DNA of 64,000 nt from an uncultured Flavobacterium sp. (GCA_937773775.1 CALJVL010000046.1:1-64000); one strand, 5' to 3'. Positions 33,307 to 47,170 are shown, counted from the first letter of the stretch. A program made the numbers and translations. The notes: generated by a model not told the origin, from the sequence alone.

Positions 33307-33507
33307 AAATTTTAAATGTCATTTTTGTTGCAGATCAAGTCAGTTTTATTCACGCCTTTCAGTAATGGTATTAAAGCTTGGCTACTTTGCGATGTACTTA
33401 ACTAAGGAAGCCTTTACTTTTTATTAACGACTAATTCTTTAACTATAAAACTAACTTTAAATTAAGCTTAAACCCGCCAAATCGCCAAATCGATTTTAGC
33501 ACAAGTA

Positions 33508-34908
33508 TTATTTTGTTTGTGTTTGTACCCACTTCAAAATTTCTGTCAAAGCTGTTGGTGAAAATGTTTGTTCTATTGTTGCATATTCGTCAGGCGAACC
33601 TGTTTTGCATTCTTGAAATAAATGATTTAGGTTTGGCAATTCTTTTATTGTTACTTTTTTATTTCCAGCTTTTGCCAATGCTTCTTTTATTGCTTCCAAA
33701 TTTTCTTTTGGTGGAACTTGTAAATCTTTCTCTCCATTAATTGCTAAAACAGGACATTTTACTTTCTCCAATGCTGGTCTAGGATTGTATTTAATAAAAT
33801 ATTGCATCCACGGATTTGCAATTTGTTTGACTTGCAATTTTACAAAATCGTCATCACTCATTCCTTGCGGTTTTCCAGCGTTTGGATTATCTACTAAGCT
33901 TTGTTTTATAAAATTAGTTAAGTCAATATTAAGTTGCTCCATACTGTTTGACTTATTTACAATTTCAAATGCTTTTCTATTTGTTAATTCGGTTTTTTGT
34001 AAATCTTCTTCACTGACTCCAGAAGCTTTTCCAATTAATTTCTGTTGCAGTAAAAGTATTTGGTCCCCTTGTATTCCTGTACCCGCCAATAAAACGATAA
34101 AAGCCACGTCTTTTGATTTGCTGGCGACCATTGGTGCAATTAATCCACCTTCACTGTGCCCAATTAAACCAATTTTCTTTTTATTTATTTCTTTTCTTGT
34201 TTTTAAATATTCTATTGCACTTTCTACATCTGTTGCAAAGTCGGCAGAAGTTGCAGTTTTAAAATCTCCTTGTGATAATCCAGTTCCTCTGTCGTCATAA
34301 CGTAAAACTGCAATTCCATTTTTCGTTAAATAATCTGATAAAACAAGAAATGGTTTGTGTCCCAGTAATTCCTCATCTCTGTTTTTTGGCCCACTTCCAC
34401 TTATTAAAATTGCAACAGGAAAAACTCCGTCTTTTTTTGGCAATGTCAATGTTCCTGATAAATTTATCCTTGCTTTACTATTTTCAAAAGTTACGTCCTC
34501 TGAATAATAAGGGTATGGCTTTATTGGTTCTTGTGGTCTTACAAGTTTTTCTTTTTCAATTACTTCTTTTGATAAGTTCATCGCAAAGGATTGTCCAGCT
34601 TGTTTGAAAGTGCCAACTATAATGTTGTCTTTGCCTAATGCTCCTACATATACAATTCTTGCATTTTCGATTGTGATTGTCAAAATTGAGTTTTCAAAAC
34701 TTGTAGTTGTAGTTGGAATTCCTTTTGCTCCTTGGTCTGGACTATCCATTGTTGAGCTTACACCTTTATCCGTTTTAGTAACATTAAATACAAGCCTTAA
34801 TTGTGTTCCTTGCACTTTTAATACTCCATTCCACTGTCCTGTAATGTCTTGTGCTATTAAAGTAATTGAAGATAATAGTGAAATCAGTAAAATCGAAAAT
34901 GTTCTCAT
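33508..34908 (-). CDS. secreted alpha/beta hydrolase
   Basis: Signal peptide; VAILISGSGPKNRDEELLGHKPFLVLSDYLTKNGIAVLRYDDRGTGLS; GLIGHSEGGLIAPMVA. Confidence 0.9.
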   Translation of the reverse strand: MRTFSILLISLLSSITLIAQDITGQWNGVLKVQGTQLRLVFNVTKTDKGVSSTMDSPDQGAKGIPTTTTSFENSILTITIENARIVYVGALGKDNIIVGTFKQAGQSFAMNLSKEVIEKEKLVRPQEPIKPYPYYSEDVTFENSKARINLSGTLTLPKKDGVFPVAILISGSGPKNRDEELLGHKPFLVLSDYLTKNGIAVLRYDDRGTGLSQGDFKTATSADFATDVESAIEYLKTRKEINKKKIGLIGHSEGGLIAPMVASKSKDVAFIVLLAGTGIQGDQILLLQQKLIGKASGVSEEDLQKTELTNRKAFEIVNKSNSMEQLNIDLTNFIKQSLVDNPNAGKPQGMSDDDFVKLQVKQIANPWMQYFIKYNPRPALEKVKCPVLAINGEKDLQVPPKENLEAIKEALAKAGNKKVTIKELPNLNHLFQECKTGSPDEYATIEQTFSPTALTEILKWVQTQTK

Positions 34909-35269
34909 ATTAATTTGTTGTTTTTTAATTGCTTTTTGAGTTGTATCTGAAAATGAGCAAGGCGAAATAGCATAATATTCAGTAAGTTTTGCTTTTGATA
35001 GTCAGACATCTTTCTCCATGGCGAATAGCTCCTTCCTCGCTATAACTTTGATTGTTGAATTGTTTTCTTTGCCCAGTTTTACTTGCGAAGTCAGGAGACT
35101 TAGCAGACAGGGTTTTTTCTTTTGTAAATAAACACAAAATGAAAAAAGAAATAAGAATAAGTCACATTTTTATTTTCATAATTAATTTCGCTTTCTCGAC
35201 CTAAGCCAGTGTTTAGCCATTAATACACTACTCTTAAAAAGAGTCAACAACAAAAAAATAAAATAAAAC

Positions 35270-35404
35270 CTATATTACAATAAAAAAAAGTCCTAGGTAT
35301 ACATTATTCAAATTTTTCTTTAAGTCTTTTTTAATTAAAAGATGGTATAAAAGCCAACCAATATAGGCGATTACTAAGCCAATCACCATTACAACTCTTG
35401 ACAT
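35270..35404 (-). CDS. 44-aa predicted membrane peptide
   Basis: Not in the ORF track; minus-strand reading MSRVVMVIGLVIAYIGWLLYHLLIKKDLKKNLNNVYLGLFFIVI*. Confidence 0.45.
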   Translation of the reverse strand: MSRVVMVIGLVIAYIGWLLYHLLIKKDLKKNLNNVYLGLFFIVI

Positions 35405-35630
35405 AATTTATTTATTTTTTGTTTTATACAATTAATCTCTAGTTGTCTAATATGTCACTAATTTCCTTATTTTTTTTGAATAACCCCTAACTTTTCGCCA
35501 CTTTGAGATGGCTGGAAGTTCGTAAACGTTCAATTTTCGATTTAACGAAATCTTGATGCGAAACGTTAATTCCATTAAACTTTAGCTAGCTAAAAGCAGC
35601 TGCTAGCCGTCCAGTTTTTCAATTTCGTTA

Positions 35631-36017
35631 TTATTTCGTCCAATTCATTATTTGGTTTTTAAAACCTTCAAGTTTTATAAGGTAAAAACCTGAAAACAAA
35701 ATAATCCAAGTGATAAATACTAAAAACAATACAATTAGATTTATTCCATTTTCTGTATTTTCAGAGTACAAACAAATAAATCCTAGTAAAATCAGACCGA
35801 CAAAATTATAGATAAAAGCATTTTTTAAACTCATTGTAATAATTCCGGTTAAAAAATTCCACCCAATAAGTTTATCTTTAATAATTATTTTATTCGGCAC
35901 TTCAAATTCAATTGTAACTTGTTGAGCAAGTTCCAATTTTACAAAAATTGAATTATCTTTTTCCGAGTAACTGTAATCATATTTATCTAGAAAGTTTAAC
36001 ACTTTTTCTTTTTCCAT
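35631..36017 (-). CDS. hypothetical membrane protein
   Basis: 128-aa ORF with two hydrophobic segments; immediately downstream of 36021-36209. Confidence 0.65.
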   Translation of the reverse strand: MEKEKVLNFLDKYDYSYSEKDNSIFVKLELAQQVTIEFEVPNKIIIKDKLIGWNFLTGIITMSLKNAFIYNFVGLILLGFICLYSENTENGINLIVLFLVFITWIILFSGFYLIKLEGFKNQIMNWTK

Positions 36018-36020
36018 TTT

Positions 36021-36209
36021 CTATTTATGTTCTTCTCGATTATTTAAATCTCTAATATTTATTATCATTCCAATCATCAATAATAAGTTAGATACAATTC
36101 CCCAATAATTTCCGTTTTGCAAGTTCTTAAAATCTAAATTATAAGTGTTTATTATCAGTAGTATTATACTTACAAATAATAACAAGTGTGCTAATTTTAG
36201 TTTGTTCAT
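36021..36209 (-). CDS. small hypothetical membrane protein
   Basis: Start at MNKLKLAHLLLFVSIILLI; two hydrophobic segments. Confidence 0.6.
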   Translation of the reverse strand: MNKLKLAHLLLFVSIILLIINTYNLDFKNLQNGNYWGIVSNLLLMIGMIINIRDLNNREEHK

Positions 36210-36242
36210 TTTAATTAATTTAAATTTTTTCGTTCTGCCTAA

Positions 36243-36391
36243 ATAACGCACAGCACACCGCAGCTATACTCGGTTTTGGGATTAAATCTTGAGTTTTCTT
36301 TAGTTAATAATTTTTATTCCAAGTAACAAACCATGATTAAATTAAGCCGAATACCCAAATCCAGGAAAACAGCTGGTTGTGCGTAGTTCTT
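36243..36391 (-). repeat. attC-like imperfect palindrome (site C)
   Basis: TAACGCACAg..CAGCTAtactcGGTTTTGGGATTAAAT ... ATTAAGCCGAATACCCAAATCCAGG..CAGCTGgTTGTGCGTAGTT. Confidence 0.65.
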
Positions 36392-36393
36392 GA

Positions 36394-37143
36394 TTAAAAA
36401 CTCATTGACATTCCTATTCCTAAATTTTTTCCATTATAGACTGGTATAATTACACCATTCGCTTTTTTATTGCCACTGAATATATTTCGTTTCATCCATG
36501 GATGAATCCAATATGCAATTTTTGTACTTAGTATACCTATTCCAGCTCCAGCCGCAACATCCGTTAACCAATGTCTGTCATTATACATCCTGAAAAAACC
36601 AGTTCCTGCTGCAACAGCATAACCGGAAATACCATACCAAATTGATTCATCTTTGTATTCCTGAAATAAAAATTCTGCTCCCATAAAAGCAGTTGCTGTA
36701 TGACCTGAAGGAAAAGAATTATTGGAAGTCCCATCTGGTCTTTCAACATTTCCGGTGTTTTTTATGACATTAACTGTCGCACCCATAATTATGTATGCAG
36801 TTCCCAATATAATTGTTCTGTCTTTAAAATTATTTTTTCCTTTTATTCCTGTTGTATTCAATGCGTAAACTGAAAGAAAAGGAGCATATTGTGAAATATC
36901 GTCAATCGTAAATTTCTTATCAATATGCTCATTTAATTCGTTTTTTATATCTGAATTTATACCTTTTAATGTGTTACTTTCCAGACCAATGATTCCGTAT
37001 CCAATTAATACTGTTGGCATTATTAAACTTTTGTATTTAAATTTAGTATTGTTATGTATTTGTAAACTGTCAACAGTTTTATTTTGACCACATAAATTTA
37101 AGGTCAAGATTAAAGCAATAAATAAGAAATTATTTTTTTTCAT
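36394..37143 (-). CDS. phosphatase PAP2 family protein
   Basis: NVERPDGTSNNSFPSGHTATAFMGAEFLF ... YNDRHWLTDVAAGAGIGI. Confidence 0.9.
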   Translation of the reverse strand: MKKNNFLFIALILTLNLCGQNKTVDSLQIHNNTKFKYKSLIMPTVLIGYGIIGLESNTLKGINSDIKNELNEHIDKKFTIDDISQYAPFLSVYALNTTGIKGKNNFKDRTIILGTAYIIMGATVNVIKNTGNVERPDGTSNNSFPSGHTATAFMGAEFLFQEYKDESIWYGISGYAVAAGTGFFRMYNDRHWLTDVAAGAGIGILSTKIAYWIHPWMKRNIFSGNKKANGVIIPVYNGKNLGIGMSMSF

Positions 37144-37159
37144 TGGTTTTCTACAGAAT

Positions 37160-37303
37160 TACACATAACGTTCCCTTGCTACAAGAGGTTTGGGGTTAAA
37201 TTAAGCCTTATTTTCGGATTTGCCTAAACATCCCAAATACAAAACCATTTTCCCATTAAGCCAATTGCCCAAATCTCTTGTGGGCAAGTGTTAGTGGCTG
37301 GCT
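37160..37303 (-). repeat. attC-like imperfect palindrome (site D)
   Basis: CATAACG..CTTGCTACAAGAGGTTTGGGG ... CCCAAATACAAAACCATTTTCCCATTAAGCC..GCCCAAATCTCTTGTGGGCAAGTGTTAGTGGC. Confidence 0.7.
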
Positions 37304-37304
37304 T

Positions 37305-38567
37305 TTATCTTTCAATATAATCTAAATAGGTAATAGAATCCCGAAATAAGTAATTACCGTTTCCTTTTTCGAATGGATAATGTTTTTCGAAAATTTCGAA
37401 TTGTTTTAGCTTTACATATTCTTTATCATATTGTCCTTTTTCAAGTGAAAATACAGATTCTAATATTCTTTTAGCATTTTCTTCATCGCCAATTTCGAAA
37501 GGTATTTTATTTTGTAAAAAATGTAAAGATTCAGTTCTTGAAGGACCGTTTTTACTCAAATTACCTAATGAGAATTTATTTTTATTTTTGCTTTGTTTAA
37601 CATCATTTTCTATTCTATGAATGTAAGACTTCCGGATTGCCCCTGCAATTTTTGTGTTTTCTAAAAATTTTTTACCTTGTTCGAGATTAAAATTCATTCG
37701 TTTGAATAAGAAGTAAAATGGATATGAAGAAGTATTTCTTTGACAAGCAAATCTCAATAGTTCTTCAGCTCTGAAATCCTGTTTGTTTAATAAAAATTCT
37801 TTATATAAATCTTCTTCATATAAAACTGTAGATTTTTTTATAACTCTGGCTAACTCTGGAATATATCCAATTATCTTTACAGCTGGCTGTCCATCTTCTT
37901 GAATAGAATATCTATCAATAATTTTAATCTGTTTTAGTAATTCTTCATCTAATAGGAAAGTATTATTATCACTTATAATTTCCCCACTTTGCGAATTTAA
38001 TAAATGTGTATTTTCAATACCAATTTTTCCAATATTATCAAGTAATTTTAGCCATTTATTTGATTCTTCATCTTTTACATCTTGAATTAATTTTATTAAA
38101 TCTCCTGCTTTTATTTTAGTAGTTTTAGCACTATAGCGGAAATAAATATCTGAAGAATTTGTTTTTGAAGTGTCTTTAGTACAAATAATTGGTCTCGTTT
38201 TACTTTTTGCAGAGTATAATATTCCAATAGTTAGCCCTTTGTGATCAAACGTTCTTCTTTCAAACTGAATATAAGGTGTAAAAACTTCATTGATATAGTT
38301 TGTAATGTCAGCATCGTCAATATCTTCAAAATTATTTACTCCAATTATTTTATGAGGTTTGTTTTCAATTCCGAAAAATAATGCACCACCATTATTATTT
38401 GCAAAAGCTGCTAAAGATTTACAATAAGTTGCCCTTGATGATTCTGTTTGCCAATCAAAGACGCTTTTAAATTCAATGCAATATGATTCTCTTCTTTTAA
38501 TGATGTTATTTACATCAGCAACTGCAAAAAAATCATTTAACCATTCATCAGTTAATATATCTGTCAT
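37305..38567 (-). CDS. AlbA_2 (Schlafen-like) ATP-binding domain protein
   Basis: ESYCIEFKSVFDWQTESSRATYCKSLAAFANNNGGALFFGIENKPHKIIGV. Confidence 0.8.
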   Translation of the reverse strand: MTDILTDEWLNDFFAVADVNNIIKRRESYCIEFKSVFDWQTESSRATYCKSLAAFANNNGGALFFGIENKPHKIIGVNNFEDIDDADITNYINEVFTPYIQFERRTFDHKGLTIGILYSAKSKTRPIICTKDTSKTNSSDIYFRYSAKTTKIKAGDLIKLIQDVKDEESNKWLKLLDNIGKIGIENTHLLNSQSGEIISDNNTFLLDEELLKQIKIIDRYSIQEDGQPAVKIIGYIPELARVIKKSTVLYEEDLYKEFLLNKQDFRAEELLRFACQRNTSSYPFYFLFKRMNFNLEQGKKFLENTKIAGAIRKSYIHRIENDVKQSKNKNKFSLGNLSKNGPSRTESLHFLQNKIPFEIGDEENAKRILESVFSLEKGQYDKEYVKLKQFEIFEKHYPFEKGNGNYLFRDSITYLDYIER

Positions 38568-38724
38568 TTTAAATGTTTTATGGTTAGCTTACCACTTAAC
38601 TATTGCCAAACGCTTATTAGTGAGTGGCATTTTCTTTTTCTTCCATTTTTGAAATCTCAATATTAAGCTTACGCTTTTTAACCGAATTTAAAAGTAAAGT
38701 TTGATGATTAGTTATTATAAAAGT

Positions 38725-39111
38725 TTAAATTTCCAATCTGCCAAAATTCACTTCGATAAAAGAAACATATAAATTTTGTTCGAAAAAGTTGTCTAATTTA
38801 AGCTCTACATTATCGGCAAACTTCTTTTTTGATTTTATTCCATCGAATCTTGTATATCCTAATTCTTTGCGAAAAGAATGATTAACAGTTCTATTTATTT
38901 CGTTAATTCTTGCTCGTAAATTCCCTGTTTCTCCAATGTATAGAAGCTTATTATTTCCTTCATAAAGTACATAAACGCCTGGTTTATCAGGAATGGACTT
39001 TTCCCGCCAATTCTTATCTTTTTTAAATTTTATTTTTTCTGAAGAAAATAAATTTATTTCAGCTTGCGCTAAACCTTCATACAAGTCATTATTTTCAAAT
39101 AGATATTTCAT
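38725..39111 (-). CDS. GIY-YIG nuclease domain protein
   Basis: KPGVYVLYEGNNKLLYIGETGNLRARINE. Confidence 0.75.
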   Translation of the reverse strand: MKYLFENNDLYEGLAQAEINLFSSEKIKFKKDKNWREKSIPDKPGVYVLYEGNNKLLYIGETGNLRARINEINRTVNHSFRKELGYTRFDGIKSKKKFADNVELKLDNFFEQNLYVSFIEVNFGRLEI

Positions 39112-39117
39112 TTCAAT

Positions 39118-39318
39118 TTAATATAGATTTGGAATTTGTTGAGAAACGGCAATTTTGAAATTATCCATTAAGTCCGAAGAGTCAAATTCAATTTCATATA
39201 CAGTTCCGTCTTTTGTTGATATTTTTGAAAATCTAGTTCCGTGTTTTCTAATTATGCTTTCAAAAGCATCTAAATATCTTTCGCTTTTTTCGGGAATAAT
39301 AAAAGTGTGTACATTCAT
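39118..39318 (-). CDS. small hypothetical protein paired with the GIY-YIG gene
   Basis: Start at MNVHTFIIPEKSERYLDAFESIIRKHGTRFSK favoured; 7 bp upstream of the GIY-YIG ORF. Confidence 0.55.
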   Translation of the reverse strand: MNVHTFIIPEKSERYLDAFESIIRKHGTRFSKISTKDGTVYEIEFDSSDLMDNFKIAVSQQIPNLY

Positions 39319-39399
39319 TTCTTTTAAATTTAGATTGTAATATAAAAATATTTTGGTTGTTTTGGATTGTTGATTCTGAGTGTTGCTTGCCACTAACGT

Positions 39400-41119
39400 C
39401 AGTCTGTGAAAAAACCGTCGTTATGTTCTTTCAAATATAATGTATATTTCGAATATTAAAGCAAGAAAAGTTGTATATTTAATGATGCAACACATCACAG
39501 GAACTCCTCGCAATCAGCTATTTTTTTCTAGTTTAGAAGACACTATTTTACCGGAAAACCCCGTTCGTTTTATCGATGCTTTTGTCGAAGCATTGTCATT
39601 ACAAACTTTAGGTTTTTCTGTTCAAACCATTAAAGGGGAAGGTCGCCCGAGCTTTGATACTAAAATCTTTCTTAAAATCTATTTGTATGGTTATCTAAAT
39701 GGGCTGCGTAGCTCAAGAAAGCTAGAAAAGGAGTGCGCTCGCAATAACGAATTGCAATGGCTTTTATGTGCAATCATACCCAACTACCATAGTATATCCG
39801 ACTTTAGAAAACAAAATCCATTGGGATTAAAAAAACTCTTTAAACTCTTTGTTTCTTTCCTTAAAGATGCTGACCTAATTGGCTGTGAAATCATCGCTAT
39901 TGACGGCACAAAAAGCAGAGCGCACAACAGTAAGAAAGCAAACTTCAACCAAAAGAAAATAGAGAGACACTTAGCGTATATTGAAGAGCGAACCCAAGAA
40001 TATCTTGCCGAATTGGCTAAGAATGATCTACAGGATAATAGCATTGCAATCACAAAGATTGCAGAAAAAATAGAACGATTAAAAAAGAATAAAATACGCT
40101 ACGAACTTCTAGAAGACAAACTAAAAGAGAGTGGACAACCCCAAATAAGTACCACCGATCAAGATGCGAGAGCCCTTTTAGTTCAAGGAGTAGTAGTTGA
40201 GATAAGCTATAATATCCAAGCAGCAGTGGATAATAAGCATAATTTAGTTGTGGCTACTCACACCATAAATCGGAACGATCTTAACGCCTTAGGAGCTATC
40301 GCTTTGGAAGCAAAGGAAAATTTGGGACTAGATACTTTTACTGTTTTGGTGGATAAAGGCTACCATAATGGAAGGGAAATCGCCCAATGCATAAACCATA
40401 ACATCAGCACCATTGTAGCGCATCCTACGCCAGGAACAAGCAAAGAAAGCGTTACGCAACCCGATTACTTGGTAGCCAAATTTAAATACGATGCAGAAAA
40501 CGACAGCTATACGTGTCCCCAAGGAGAAACTTTAAAAACTACAGGAAGGTGGCATAAAAAAAGTGGGCGAACAGAGCAAAGTAGTTATCAATTTAAAAAA
40601 TACCGAACCCCAGCCTGCCGGGAATGTCTTGTAAAACATCTTTGTACTGCTAGACCAGCAGGGCGGGAAATCGATCGGAGCCAGTACGCGCAAGCTGTTG
40701 AAGAAAACAACAAACGCTATCAGGAAAACCCACAATTATACCGAACACGACAAGAGATAAACGAACATATATTCGGTACTATAAAAAGACAATGGGGTTA
40801 TAATCACACTAATTTAACGGGACTAGAAAAAGTAAACGGAGAACACAGCTTAATTATGCTGGTTTATAACATCAAACGCAGTATCAATATACTGGGCGTT
40901 CCTGATCTGATTGCCAAACTCAAAAAATGGAACACACCTTACAGAGCACAAGTCTTGCTTTTGCTAAAAACGGAGTATTTAAAGCGAACTAACGCCCTTG
41001 ATTATTATCTAATGAAATTAGTAGCCTAAAAAAAGAGCCTTCTTAAAAGGCTTTATTTGACTTGTAGAACAGGAAAATTCAAGCTTTTTAATGGAAAAAG
41101 GAGGTTTTTTCACAGCCTG
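39400..41119 (+). mobile_element. IS1182-family insertion sequence, 1720 bp
   Basis: Terminal IRs CAGTCTGTGAAAAAACC / CAGGCTGTGAAAAAACC; 4-bp TSD ACGT at 39396-39399 and 41120-41123; contains one transposase ORF. Confidence 0.9.
39440..41029 (+). CDS. IS1182-family transposase
   Basis: GTPRNQLFFSSLEDTILPENPVRFIDAFVEAL ... GRPSFDTKIFLKIYLYGYLNGLRSSRKLEKECARNNELQWL. The track start is upstream of the likely MMQHITGTPRNQ start. Confidence 0.92.
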   Translation: MYISNIKARKVVYLMMQHITGTPRNQLFFSSLEDTILPENPVRFIDAFVEALSLQTLGFSVQTIKGEGRPSFDTKIFLKIYLYGYLNGLRSSRKLEKECARNNELQWLLCAIIPNYHSISDFRKQNPLGLKKLFKLFVSFLKDADLIGCEIIAIDGTKSRAHNSKKANFNQKKIERHLAYIEERTQEYLAELAKNDLQDNSIAITKIAEKIERLKKNKIRYELLEDKLKESGQPQISTTDQDARALLVQGVVVEISYNIQAAVDNKHNLVVATHTINRNDLNALGAIALEAKENLGLDTFTVLVDKGYHNGREIAQCINHNISTIVAHPTPGTSKESVTQPDYLVAKFKYDAENDSYTCPQGETLKTTGRWHKKSGRTEQSSYQFKKYRTPACRECLVKHLCTARPAGREIDRSQYAQAVEENNKRYQENPQLYRTRQEINEHIFGTIKRQWGYNHTNLTGLEKVNGEHSLIMLVYNIKRSINILGVPDLIAKLKKWNTPYRAQVLLLLKTEYLKRTNALDYYLMKLVA

Positions 41120-41354
41120 ACGTCTTGCTAGTAGGCGATGGTCGGGCTAAATAAAGCAATTGTTTTCGGATTATCACTAATTTCCCAAATACAAAACAAT
41201 CTTTCCATTAAGCCAAATCCCCGACTATTGCTTACTAGCTGTTGGCAGAAGTTTTTTTTAATTCTTGTGTGATTTTTTTACTAAAATTCGGTTCAATAGA
41301 ATTTATAAAATGTAACCAACCATATATTCTATCACGAGTAATATCTATTTCGCT

Positions 41355-42451
41355 AGATTCAATTAGTTAATGCAACTCTCAGGAAAAGGGATTGGATAAT
41401 TTTTTCAAAAGAAAGGACATTAAAGTCCTCTCGTTCGAATGGAATAAATTGTCTTTATTTACTCCTGACCAAAGTTGTAAATAATGAGCCATTTAACCAG
41501 CGAAAGAAGATATACTATTAGTGTATTATTAGAGCAGAATTTCAGCAAAAGCGAAATAGCAATAGTTATTAAAAAAGACAAGTCCGTTTTAACACGAGAG
41601 CTTCAACGTAATTGTGATTTACGCAGTGGTAAATATGATTTTGATTTAGCTCAGCGAAAATATGAAAAACGACAAAAAAGCAAAACCAAAAGAAATGACT
41701 TAACTCTTGAAATTAAAGAGCGGATTAAAGAATACCTCCATCAAGAGTTAAGTCCAGAACAAATAGTAGGCGTTTGCTCAAAAAACGGATTGTCATGTGT
41801 GTCAACAGAGTCTATTTATCAACATATTTGGAAAGATAAAAAAGAAAAGGGGAATTTGTATTTAAGTCTACGAACAACTGGGAAAAGGTATAGAAAAAGA
41901 GGAAGTAAAAAAGACTCCAGAGGTGTCTTGAGTAACAGAAGATTGATTGAAGATCGACCTAAAATTGTCGATTTAAAGCAACGTTTTGGAGACTTGGAGA
42001 TCGATACTATAATCGGTAAGAATCACAAAGGTGCCATTGTGACCATAAACGATAGAGCCACTGGAATACTGAGGATGAAAAAAATAAAAGCTAAAGAAAG
42101 TGAATTGGTTAGACAAGCGGCAATTGAATTATTAGAGAACTGGAAGCCCTATTTGTTTACAATAACATCCGACAATGGAAAAGAGTTTGCAATGCATCAA
42201 GAAATCGCTACAGTATTAGAAGTTGACTTCTATTTTGCAAATCCTTACAGTCCTTGGGAACGTGGAGCAAATGAAAATCTAAATGGACTTATAAGGCAGT
42301 ATATACCCAAATCGACCTCTTTTGAAGAAATAACCGTCGAAAGAATTATAGAAATACAAGAAAAATTAAATAATCGTCCGAGAAAAAGATTTAATTTTGA
42401 AACACCAAATTATATGTTTAACCAAAAAGTTGCATTAGTAACTTGAATTCA
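41355..42451 (+). mobile_element. IS30-family insertion sequence, ~1.1 kb
   Basis: Imperfect IRs AGATTCAATTAGTTAATGCAACT / TGAATTCAAGTTACTAATGCAACT (other end, reverse complement); putative 3-bp TSD GCT at 41352-41354 and 42452-42454. Confidence 0.85.
41484..42446 (+). CDS. IS30-family transposase
   Basis: HLTSERRYTISVLLEQNFSKSEIAIVI; GDLEIDTIIGKNHKGAIVTINDRATG; FTITSDNGKEFAMHQ; FANPYSPWERGANENLNGLIRQYIPK. Confidence 0.95.
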   Translation: MSHLTSERRYTISVLLEQNFSKSEIAIVIKKDKSVLTRELQRNCDLRSGKYDFDLAQRKYEKRQKSKTKRNDLTLEIKERIKEYLHQELSPEQIVGVCSKNGLSCVSTESIYQHIWKDKKEKGNLYLSLRTTGKRYRKRGSKKDSRGVLSNRRLIEDRPKIVDLKQRFGDLEIDTIIGKNHKGAIVTINDRATGILRMKKIKAKESELVRQAAIELLENWKPYLFTITSDNGKEFAMHQEIATVLEVDFYFANPYSPWERGANENLNGLIRQYIPKSTSFEEITVERIIEIQEKLNNRPRKRFNFETPNYMFNQKVALVT

Positions 42452-43382
42452 GCTTTCATTAATGATTAAACTTTTAATTTCTTGATTTTTTAATTGATGT
42501 TTTTTAATTTTTAATTTCCGCATAATATGTTCTTCATATCCATATTTTCCAATGTAATATGCCTCTAATCTTAATTCCCGCTTTATTTTTTTTGGAATTC
42601 TTGGATAATTATTATCAAATACAGAAAGTCCTGTAACATATTGTTTTTGACCTCTTTTCATTAGTTTGGTTTTTGAATTGTTAATTTCAAAACCATATTT
42701 AGTAATGATTTTTGTAATTAATTCGAGATTCAATTGAGTTAAATCACTTGAAAAATATAAATCATCTGCGTAACGAGTATAATCAATTGTTTCATCGATA
42801 TTTTTAAGGATTTCCAAATCCATTTCTACAGCAACAATATTTGCAATAATTGGACTAGTACTAAAACCTTGTACTAAATATCCATTTACGCAAGCAATAT
42901 TAGAAATCCATTCAGAAACTTGAATATTTATACCCAATTTAGTAAGTGATTCAATAATTTGATTTTGAGTGATTGTTTCAAAAAAATCCTTAATGTCTAC
43001 TGTAAGAATTTGTTTTTTTGCTAGATGCACAAAAGCATTTGTTTTAATGTTTTTTTTAAATACAAAACCTTGGACACAATCTAATGGTTTATAAATATTC
43101 GCTAGTCCAGTATTTAATGTTTTTTGACAATGTTCTAATTCGTGATTTAAAGAATTATGTATAGTTCGATATCCTAAAGTTGGATTTCTTTTCTCGATAT
43201 AAAATTTTTCAATAGCGATTGTACTTTCAAGTATTTCGAAATCAATATTTTGATTTTTTTTATTGTCAATTATCACATATTCTCTTAAATTGACGGAATC
43301 TAAAAAAGATTCTCTACATCTTAAAAAAAATAAAAATTGTTTTTTTGTTTCTATTTGAAGTAAATCCATCTTTAATAAATAA

Positions 43383-43466
43383 GTGGGCGTTAGGGTAAGG
43401 TAGATAGTAATTTATTCTAATAATCGGATACGAACTCATATCCATAATTTTACCCTAACTACCCAC
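43383..43466 (-). ncRNA. candidate structured RNA / stem-loop between DUF3800 and RT genes (possible retron msr-msd)
   Basis: Arms AGTGGGtaGTTAGGGTAA / TTACCCTAACgCCCACT enclosing ~50 nt with an inner GGATA-tgagttcg-TATCC hairpin; lies immediately 5' of the RT start. Confidence 0.45.
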
Positions 43467-44190
43467 TATATTCTTTTTTTAAATTGGTTATGTTAATTTT
43501 TTTATCATCTGTTTTTTTTCTTCCTAAAAAAACATTTTTATGCAAGATATTAATAACTCCTATTTTTGGTGAGATTAAATTGAAGTTTTTTTCCATTCTG
43601 TCATCTTTTTTATCACTTTTTAAAATACTATACAGAATGTAGTTTAGGTAATCAATTATTGATAGATTAATTAATTCTTTACCTGCAATGTGATATTCAA
43701 GGTCAAATGTCTCGTCAAAAGATTCAAAAAAATCTTTCACAATATTTTTAAAAGATTTTTTCGCAATCTCAATATCCTCAAAATAAAAGATATTTTTATC
43801 ATTTTTATTACTTTGTATTCTATCTTTTATTAGTTTCTTTAAAAACATTTCAAATATTTCAAAATCGTCTTTTTCAGTTTTTAAATTTTTAAAATATTCG
43901 GAATTTTTATTAACGACTACAAAATATGCTCTAAAATTAAAATAATGTAAACGCTTGTAATAGTGCTTTCTAACGTCAGGATGATTTTCTGTTGCGTGAA
44001 AACCTTGCTGTTTAATTGTCTCAATATCTTCTATAAAATAATCATCATTTAAAATTTCATCTTTTATTTCATTTATTGATTGCAATAAGGTTTCGGGAGA
44101 ATCTGTTTTAACACAGCCGTGAATAAAAATATTTGAGTTGTTATTGATGTGTCCAGCTTCATCAATATAAAAATAGTTTGTTTTCTTCAT
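43459..44190 (-). CDS. DUF3800 domain protein
   Basis: N-terminal NYFYIDEAGH; 243 aa; directly upstream of the RT on the same strand. Confidence 0.78.
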   Translation of the reverse strand: MKKTNYFYIDEAGHINNNSNIFIHGCVKTDSPETLLQSINEIKDEILNDDYFIEDIETIKQQGFHATENHPDVRKHYYKRLHYFNFRAYFVVVNKNSEYFKNLKTEKDDFEIFEMFLKKLIKDRIQSNKNDKNIFYFEDIEIAKKSFKNIVKDFFESFDETFDLEYHIAGKELINLSIIDYLNYILYSILKSDKKDDRMEKNFNLISPKIGVINILHKNVFLGRKKTDDKKINITNLKKEYSG

Positions 44191-44224
44191 TACTTACTTT
44201 TGGTTTCTCCTCGTTTTCTCAAAA

Positions 44225-44304
44225 TTTCTGCCAACTTGTATATACTCGCTAATTAATAGCGGTTATACACCCAAAATTAGGTGAATTGTCGCTATTAAAT
44301 AGCG
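44225..44304 (-). repeat. palindrome-rich sequence preceding the first cassette-like unit
   Basis: CGCTAATTAATAGCG (44247-44261), CACC-caaaatta-GGTG, CGCTATTAAATAGCG (44290-44304), adjacent to TTTCTGCCAAC (44225-44235). Confidence 0.55.
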
Positions 44305-44511
44305 GATTTTTGAGTTATTCAAATATATACTATTTTACCGAAAAATCTGATGAATTAATTTGACTTGAGCAATTTTTCAAAAACGACTCTTTTTTAGGGA
44401 GCAGTTTTACGACAAACGGTGTTTATTATCAAAAAATATATAGCCCCGGTAGCAGTGAAAACTCTTTATAGGCTAAAGACTGCTCTTTCTGGTATTGGCA
44501 GAGCGACCAAT

Positions 44512-44645
44512 GAAAGCTCCTACCCTGAGCCTAAAAAAGGGTTGAAGCTGGAAAAATTGTAATGGATGGCGGCAAAAGTTACTGAAATAATGAGCTATTA
44601 AAATCGTATTATGGATTTTCAGGACACAAAAAAAAACCGAAACAG
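44512..44645. repeat. ~134-bp direct repeat, copy 1
   Basis: gaaagctcctaccctgagcctaaaaaagggttgaagctgg...ttatggattttcaggacac; near-identical to 47011-47143. Confidence 0.9.
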
Positions 44646-46526: not shown

Positions 46527-47010
46527 GTTTGCTATTTTTTATTTTTAAAAATCGTCGTTTACACTTTTCTAATTGTATACTTGTTGTTGCATGATGAAAC
46601 TAATCTTTGATAAGTTCTGATACCGAATTAGCCATTTCAACTAATTATTATAAAAGAATAGTTGATAGTTATAACTATATATTCTCTTTCTAATTCAGGA
46701 ATGGTACAAAAAAAGCAATGACCTCAATTTACTGAAAATTTACTATTTAGACACTTTTTTAACGTTATCATTTTTATCAGTAGTTAAAGCATAACTGAAA
46801 ATGCATTATGTCGCTATAAATTGAAATCATTTTTAAAAATTAGATTCCAAAATCAGTTGTTCTAAAATGAATGTTTACAGGATTTAATTTATATGCCAAT
46901 CAAAAGTACTAAATCAAATAAATTTTCATTTCTAGAACTTCATTAATGACTTTTAATAGGTTTGAAAATCAATTGTTTATTGAATATTTGATAAGAATAT
47001 ATAAGGAATT

Positions 47011-47143
47011 GAAAGCTCCTACCCTGAGCCTAAAAAAAGGTTGAAGCTGGAAAAATTGTAATGGATTGCGGCAAAAGTTACTCAAATAATGAGCTATTAA
47101 AATCGTATTATGGATTTTCAAGACACAAAAAAAACCGAAACAG
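47011..47143. repeat. ~133-bp direct repeat, copy 2
   Basis: Differs from 44512-44645 at only a few positions; on the other side of the PoxB-like gene. Confidence 0.9.
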
Positions 47144-47170
47144 ACATCTGTGTCCATTTCGGTTTTATTA
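47125..47170. terminator. bidirectional terminator-like hairpin
   Basis: AAAACCGAAACAGACatctGTGTCCATTTCGGTTTT with flanking A/T runs. Confidence 0.65.

Follow-up and report, generated by a model that had tools for sequence, protein, structure and literature searches.

A probable orphan integron-type cassette array in Flavobacterium, from a lineage whose recombinase lacks the IntI insertion

In a 64,000-nt stretch of DNA from an uncultured Flavobacterium sp. (hereafter the window), accessory genes on the minus strand are separated by imperfect palindromes, which raises the question whether these genes are mobile cassettes and, if so, to which kind of system they belong. Integrons are defined and searched for via the IntI domain and canonical attC models, and a cluster of attC sites lacking an integrase, with at least two attC within 4 kb of each other, is called a CALIN. 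The original prediction for this locus, an integron-like array that might be Bacteroidetes-specific or of the CALIN type, was supported by covariance-model matches and by related loci in other genomes. We estimate a probability of about 90% that the window contains an orphan integron-type array, with an attI-like head and five attC-like sites, from a lineage whose recombinase lacks the IntI insertion and is sister to IntI.

The sites were detected with a covariance model (R1) trained on 50 sites of other loci and none from the window; an alignment of the three window sites by themselves was kept out of the model. R1 gave five matches with E<1 in the window, all on the minus strand and spread from 41.3 to 33.4 kb, and the next match had E = 1.3 (Table 1). 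The three palindromes described as clear in the original prediction (F, B and A) were thereby recognized as real sites. Three further places had been described as degraded, and two of these were also real (E and H). The third, 38581-38720, was rejected as a full site and appeared by eye to be a truncated left arm (GCCACTCACTAATAAGCGTTTGGCAATAG). At its start the array carries an attI-like sequence (GTATATACAA^GTT) that had not been noticed before. An Rfam scan found no family matching the sites, and only a sub-threshold Flavo-1 RNA upstream. Single sites folded alone gave weak z-scores, and single-site energy was not used as an argument.

Table 1. Positions of the parts of the cassette array in the window, all on the minus strand, from the attI-like end to the tail.
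Feature	Position	Strand	Basis
Candidate cassette promoter element TATATTTG (Bacteroidetes TAnnTTTG type), just upstream of attI-like head	44320..44327	-	Sequence; putative function
attI-like head, TAGCGAC..GGGTGTATA..CGCTA..TAGCGAGTATATACAA^GTT	44233..44294	-	Sequence comparison
Cassette 1, retron partner gene DUF3800	43459..44190	-	PADLOC DUF3800_VII, 315 bits
Cassette 1, strong hairpin between DUF3800 and RT	43375..43475	-	z-score -4.5; no R1 match
Cassette 1, retron type VII-A2 reverse transcriptase (RT)	41245..43369	-	PADLOC RT_VII-A2, 403 bits
Cassette site F (attC-like)	39395..41252	-	R1 match 41108-41252, E 3.6e-19
Cassette 2: small ORF 39118-39393, GIY-YIG 38725-39111, truncated site ~38600-38650, AlbA_2/Schlafen 37305-38567	37305..39393	-	Pfam
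Cassette site B (attC-like); AAC 37292-37290, GTT 37169-37167	37157..37301	-	R1 E 2.7e-19; descriptor 15.6
Cassette 3: PAP2-type phosphatase	36394..37143	-	ORF; NCBIfam LpxE/undecaprenyl-diphosphate phosphatase models, below cut-off
Cassette site A (attC-like, diverged); GTT 36247-36245	36242..36387	-	R1 E 3.7e-8
Cassette 4: two small probable membrane proteins	35631..36251	-	ORFs
Cassette site E (attC-like, left arm diverged)	35479..35613	-	R1 E 5e-11
Last unit: alpha/beta hydrolase	33508..34908	-	NCBIfam EstD-type model 154 bits, below cut-off
Cassette site H (attC-like, diverged), tail end of array	33364..33506	-	R1 E 1.3e-7

The DUF3800 and RT genes, which had been counted as separate units, together form one unit, a retron of type VII-A2 as assigned by PADLOC from the RT and its DUF3800 partner. 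The palindrome between them was rejected as a cassette site. Its strength and its position between effector and RT suggest that it is probably the msr-msd RNA of the retron. The RT gene is split by an IS30-type element (transposase 41484-42446, plus strand). Site F is interrupted as well: its left part (41252-41120) is followed by a 1.72-kb IS (39400-41119, with an ACGT target duplication), and the true right end lies behind the IS with its GTT at 39397-39395. Cassette 2 probably represents two fused units, since its AlbA_2 unit stands alone in another genome. Site-B-like sequences were present in many of 300 congeners. A BLAST search with the PAP2 cassette returned PAP2-like genes (~70-76%) without cassette boundaries and was uninformative on mobility.

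The anatomy of the sites was determined on a wider set. On its left side the site consists of N7-AAC, 1 nt and a stem of about 20 nt, and on its right side of the stem, 5 nt and GTT. A grid of offsets peaked at 1 and 5 nt, with the 4-nt asymmetry as its strongest feature, and symmetric spacers (o1=o2) stayed at background level. Compensatory changes were observed in all 15 of the 15 predicted stem pairs. The site hairpins measure roughly 85-160 nt (median site length in the chromosomal set 125 nt, median spacing 711 nt). Top-strand mismatches were mostly A opposite C (154, versus 8 of C opposite A), which on the bottom strand correspond to G.T wobbles. The bottom strand folded better in 112/156 sites (p = 6e-11, although sites of related arrays are not statistically independent); this folding and the analogy to attC suggest that the bottom strand would be the one used in recombination. 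The outer boxes were non-canonical, as had been predicted: GTTRRRY fitted just 16 and RYYYAAC 13 of 284, the inner AAC/GTT being a requirement of the search.

With the stem descriptor, the 355 kb downstream of the recombinase at 36 homologous loci yielded 156 sites on its strand against 5 on the other, while 82 kb upstream and shuffled sequence yielded none; chance matches are thus an inadequate explanation. Similar results were obtained at 80 named-genome loci, with 135 downstream sites on the recombinase strand, 6 on the opposite strand and 1 upstream. At least one site was found at 47 of these 80 loci, and many of the contigs end shortly after the integrase. The largest arrays comprised up to 25 sites in 16 kb. 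The same attI layout was present in other genomes about 100 nt past the integrase stop, and most of the 36 homologous loci had a TAnnTTTG-like motif between that stop and attI. The longest ORF was on the site strand in 177/184 ORF-bearing cassettes, and its stop codon preceded AAC by a median of 13 nt.

When a cassette is circular, its R'' and the R' at its own start form a pair. All six R'' positions complemented the cassette's own start in 98/112 cassettes, versus 60 of 1787 other pairings within the same arrays (3%). A second set, from the named-genome loci, gave complementarity to the own R' in 78/88. The outcome does not depend on the stem search, for which AAC, GTT and the inner stem were the only criteria. 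In the window the rule was exact in two cassettes and partial at site A: R'' of site F (TTCTGCCAAC) exactly complements GTTGGCAGAA at 44235, where its own cassette starts, and R'' of site B (GCCACTAAC) exactly complements GTTAGTGGC at 39397, where cassette 2 starts.

A series of near-identical Polaribacter phages from one host, Freya_1 to Freya_10, provided evidence of movement. Their recombinase also lacks the IntI insertion and is 34% identical to the one encoded in the Flavobacterium genome under study (see below). In seven phages compared, the region beside the recombinase matched except for whole units. Freya_1 had none, Freya_2 had c1, Freya_5 c1+c2, Freya_6 c1+c2+c5, Freya_9 c1+c2+c3, Freya_10 c1+c2+c3+c4 and Freya_8 c1+c3+c4. 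All breakpoints were at a GTT, two of them coincided with descriptor sites, and additions were integrase-proximal. The original prediction had named a lack of gain or loss at the boundaries as counter-evidence; in these phages units were gained and lost at just this kind of boundary. The description of the phages gives genome sizes of 44.0-48.9 kb, and the words 'integron', 'cassette' and 'insertion' are absent from its text (PMC8776804).

Units were also shared between different genomes. Two Flavobacterium, a Bacteroidia MAG and Pelobium had a 1435-nt cassette in common (93-99% identity), its homology beginning at a GTT and stopping within ~13 nt of the next GTT; in F. denitrificans it lies directly at attI. 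As read from its translations, it would encode an ArsR-like regulator and metal-transport-like proteins. From the window, the AlbA_2 unit recurred (89% identical) alone behind a degenerate attI in another Flavobacterium (genome G113), and the retron cassette recurred at 94.7% and without the IS30-type element in a second Flavobacterium, where the homology stopped at the site and the sequence beyond it differed. These observations bear on the reading that the palindromes are intergenic repeats, terminators or MITE-like elements near unrelated accessory genes, with no movement of cassettes. Such elements would fit palindromes between same-strand genes and the weak folding z-scores of single sites, but under the R''/R' rule every site is linked with the beginning of its unit over a distance of hundreds of bases, the Freya phages gain and lose units exactly, shared cassettes stop at the boundaries, and one recombinase family is constantly adjacent. 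This reading is already refuted in the relatives, and we regard it as extremely improbable for the window.

As had been predicted, the window lacks a tyrosine recombinase: a tblastn search of its 64 kb found neither an integrase nor an integrase remnant. Another contig of the same genome (C25) encodes a 347-aa tyrosine recombinase. Behind it, in the same direction, lie a GTATATACAA^GTTGGCAG-type sequence and an accessory-gene array in which four sites were recognized by eye and three by descriptor. Exact copies of TATACAAGTTGGCAG occur at the head of the window array and behind the C25 integrase and nowhere else. Contigs C10 and C2 carry 44-residue C-terminal integrase remnants, the one on C10 adjoining an attI-like sequence. 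The palindromes, whose failure to recur had been named as further counter-evidence, recurred throughout the genome, where R1 detected about 50 sites. These were distributed over 13 contigs and mostly formed clusters of consistent strand (C10 and C28 seem partly redundant). The window array is one of several arrays without an integrase in this genome. It may be inactive, since it has no integrase gene of its own and divergence affects three sites out of five (A, E and H). The intact C25 recombinase could act on it in trans.

In the C25 recombinase, an N-terminal extension (about 70 residues) precedes a SAM-like domain, which is followed by a catalytic domain of the phage-integrase type. A comparison with IntI4 (2a3v) showed that the IntI insertion, the extra domain around patch III, is absent from it. 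The distance from the K-beta motif to HxLRH was 59-66 aa in such patch-less recombinases versus 107 in IntI. It scored 202.7 bits with TIGR02249, under the cut-off of 265, and narrowly passed the XerA-type model NF040815 (221.5 bits, cut-off 220). A structure model (mean pLDDT 81, pTM 0.54) best matched XerA and the integron integrase IntI4.

The NF040815 score, the domain plan shared with XerA and simple Xer proteins (no insertion in the catalytic domain) and an archaeal XerA as the best PDB sequence match would be expected if a XerA-like recombinase acted on short double-stranded sites of the dif type, with the hairpins incidental. However, the genome has separate XerC and XerD genes, and the sites are long hairpins with covarying stems rather than short dif sites. 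The recombinase adjoins cassette arrays and not a dif site. In a careful tree, from which the Leef and Leptospira phage recombinases were omitted (long branches), IntI and the array-associated recombinases formed one group (100/99), from which XerC/D and archaeal XerA were separate. A Xer/dif-type system is accordingly very improbable. In the same tree IntI formed a clade (100/100); the patch-less recombinases, as its sister clade, had moderate support (80/81) and included an IS91-associated recombinase.

Could the arrays instead be a canonical integron or CALIN, with ordinary attC sites that a true IntI serves or has left behind? The attC-type architecture, the AAC/GTT boxes and the cassette rule are all present, and genuine IntI occurs in other classes of the phylum, with 105/395 genomes above the family cut-off. 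In contrast, no IntI above the cut-off was found in the own genome or among the congeners listed, the R' boxes rarely fit GTTRRRY, and the arrays lay beside a patch-less recombinase each time this was looked for. At 20 canonical IntI loci (357 kb), R1 gave weak matches only (best E 0.0086). The stem descriptor gave almost nothing at canonical IntI loci, which reflects a difference in geometry and does not serve as a positive control for canonical attC. We regard a canonical origin as quite improbable. The system of the patch-less recombinase appears to function like an integron but is not canonical, because the tests for the IntI insertion and the GTTRRRY box were negative.

Like sedentary chromosomal integrons, this integron-type system has an attI beside the integrase, arrays oriented on a single strand, imperfect palindromes with AAC/GTT, R''/R' complementarity, a likely folding of the bottom strand and insertion at the integrase-proximal end. 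It differs from them in the recombinase without the IntI insertion, in spacers of 1 versus 5 nt, in R' boxes that mostly do not read GTTRRRY and, in Flavobacterium, in an integrase codirectional with the cassettes. The window array resembles a CALIN in combining several sites with the absence of an integrase gene, but its sites are not of the canonical attC type and an attI-like head is retained.

Relatives of the recombinase were found in 58/121 sampled Flavobacterium genomes (E<=1e-60) and in 111/395 genomes of the phylum (E<=1e-50), with arrays checked for part of the latter. Among viral contigs with a related recombinase, 45/80 had at least two sites, most of which lay upstream of the recombinase and on the opposite strand. 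The genes of the viral arrays ran opposite to the sites in 83/86 cases (3/86 on the site strand), unlike the chromosomal layout. Two layouts exist, same-direction in Flavobacterium and divergent with reversed genes in viral contigs. Phage-borne cassette sites, one Polaribacter phage included, have been found with canonical tools and tested with IntI1 (PMC9892861); the phage arrays described here likewise place cassette sites on phages but lie next to a patch-less integrase, and their sites show the 1/5 geometry. An 'Integron-like' subgroup has been named among simple tyrosine recombinases, and in the available part of that source its patch-less members come without described cassette arrays or sites (PMC8138268). 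We found no description of the present integron lineage in the open-access literature other than preprints.

The constant adjacency and the Freya series led us to hypothesize that the patch-less recombinase is the catalyst of cassette movement. Its substrate would be a cassette site with the bottom strand folded as a hairpin. This hairpin would comprise an R box (N7-AAC/GTT), an asymmetric unpaired spacer (1 versus 5 nt), an L stem (about 20 bp) in which the bottom strand forms the G.T wobbles, and a variable loop. Strand exchange would take place at the AAC/GTT box, and the unit between two sites would be excised as a circle. Circles would be re-inserted at attI, beside a promoter that would express the newest unit.

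Exchangeable gene cassettes spread antibiotic resistance in other bacteria. A survey with IntegronFinder 2.0 reported one complete integron in Bacteroidetes proper, in Salinibacter (PMC9024848). If confirmed, the arrays described here would mean that current tools have overlooked a large pool of mobile genes, including a retron, genes of metal-resistance type and many unknowns. On balance we favor, with some reserve, the broader reading that these arrays represent an ancient sister lineage of integrons, widespread in chromosomes and phages of Bacteroidota, which captures and shuffles cassettes without the IntI-specific domain. If so, phages and chromosomes would draw on related cassette systems, and either the IntI domain would be dispensable for structure-specific recombination or recombination of folded sites would predate it. 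Whether the IntI insertion is required for recombining folded single-stranded sites thereby becomes a testable question.

The cassette sites themselves appear to be the preferred target of an insertion sequence (IS). Copies of the IS encoding a 529-aa transposase, present in the window, were also found on contigs C1, C7, C10, C13, C15, C19, C25, C26 and C28 of the source genome. All detected ends in this genome (29/29) were flanked by ACGT. Most copies were inserted in one orientation, at the crossover boxes of cassette sites. This IS looks like an element specialised for these cassette sites. Close to the array head, the window contained two copies of a 125-nt repeat (97% identity), the first of which overlapped a sub-threshold match to Flavo-1 RNA on the plus strand.

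Features discussed and their coordinates
Feature	Location
IS encoding a 529-aa transposase	window 39400-41119
Cassette 1, type VII-A2 retron	window 43375-44190
125-nt repeat, copy 1	window 44438-44580
125-nt repeat, copy 2	window 46937-47164
N-terminal extension region of the contig C25 recombinase	L005:10180-10391
IS91-type transposase gene and preceding tyrosine recombinase	L006:8676-10501
F. psychrophilum DSM 3660 recombinase and sites	L305:10001-12253

Since cassette 1 is a type VII-A2 retron that combines a DUF3800 gene, a reverse transcriptase (RT) gene and a probable msr-msd, a complete candidate defence system would move as a single cassette. The RT was interrupted by an IS30-type element in the window and uninterrupted (94.7% identity) in another Flavobacterium genome, G532.

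The Flavobacterium recombinases shared an N-terminal extension, approximately 70 residues long and carrying conserved W and WHxPD motifs, for which no match was found in Pfam. Most viral recombinases did not have this extension. A tyrosine recombinase preceding an IS91-type transposase gene was placed near the patch-less clade, on a long branch. In Flavobacterium psychrophilum DSM 3660, the type strain and a fish pathogen, the array-associated recombinase was present, with two sites up to the contig end.

For 83 of 86 cassettes in viral arrays (IMG/VR contigs, L137-L216), the longest ORF and the site were on opposite strands; chromosomal arrays showed the reverse arrangement. The Freya phages of Polaribacter (L218-L228) represent a single phage that was isolated ten times from the same bloom, and the seven isolates compared differed by exact units. 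Because isolates from the same bloom differ in this way, cassette turnover may be rapid enough to be followed in culture.
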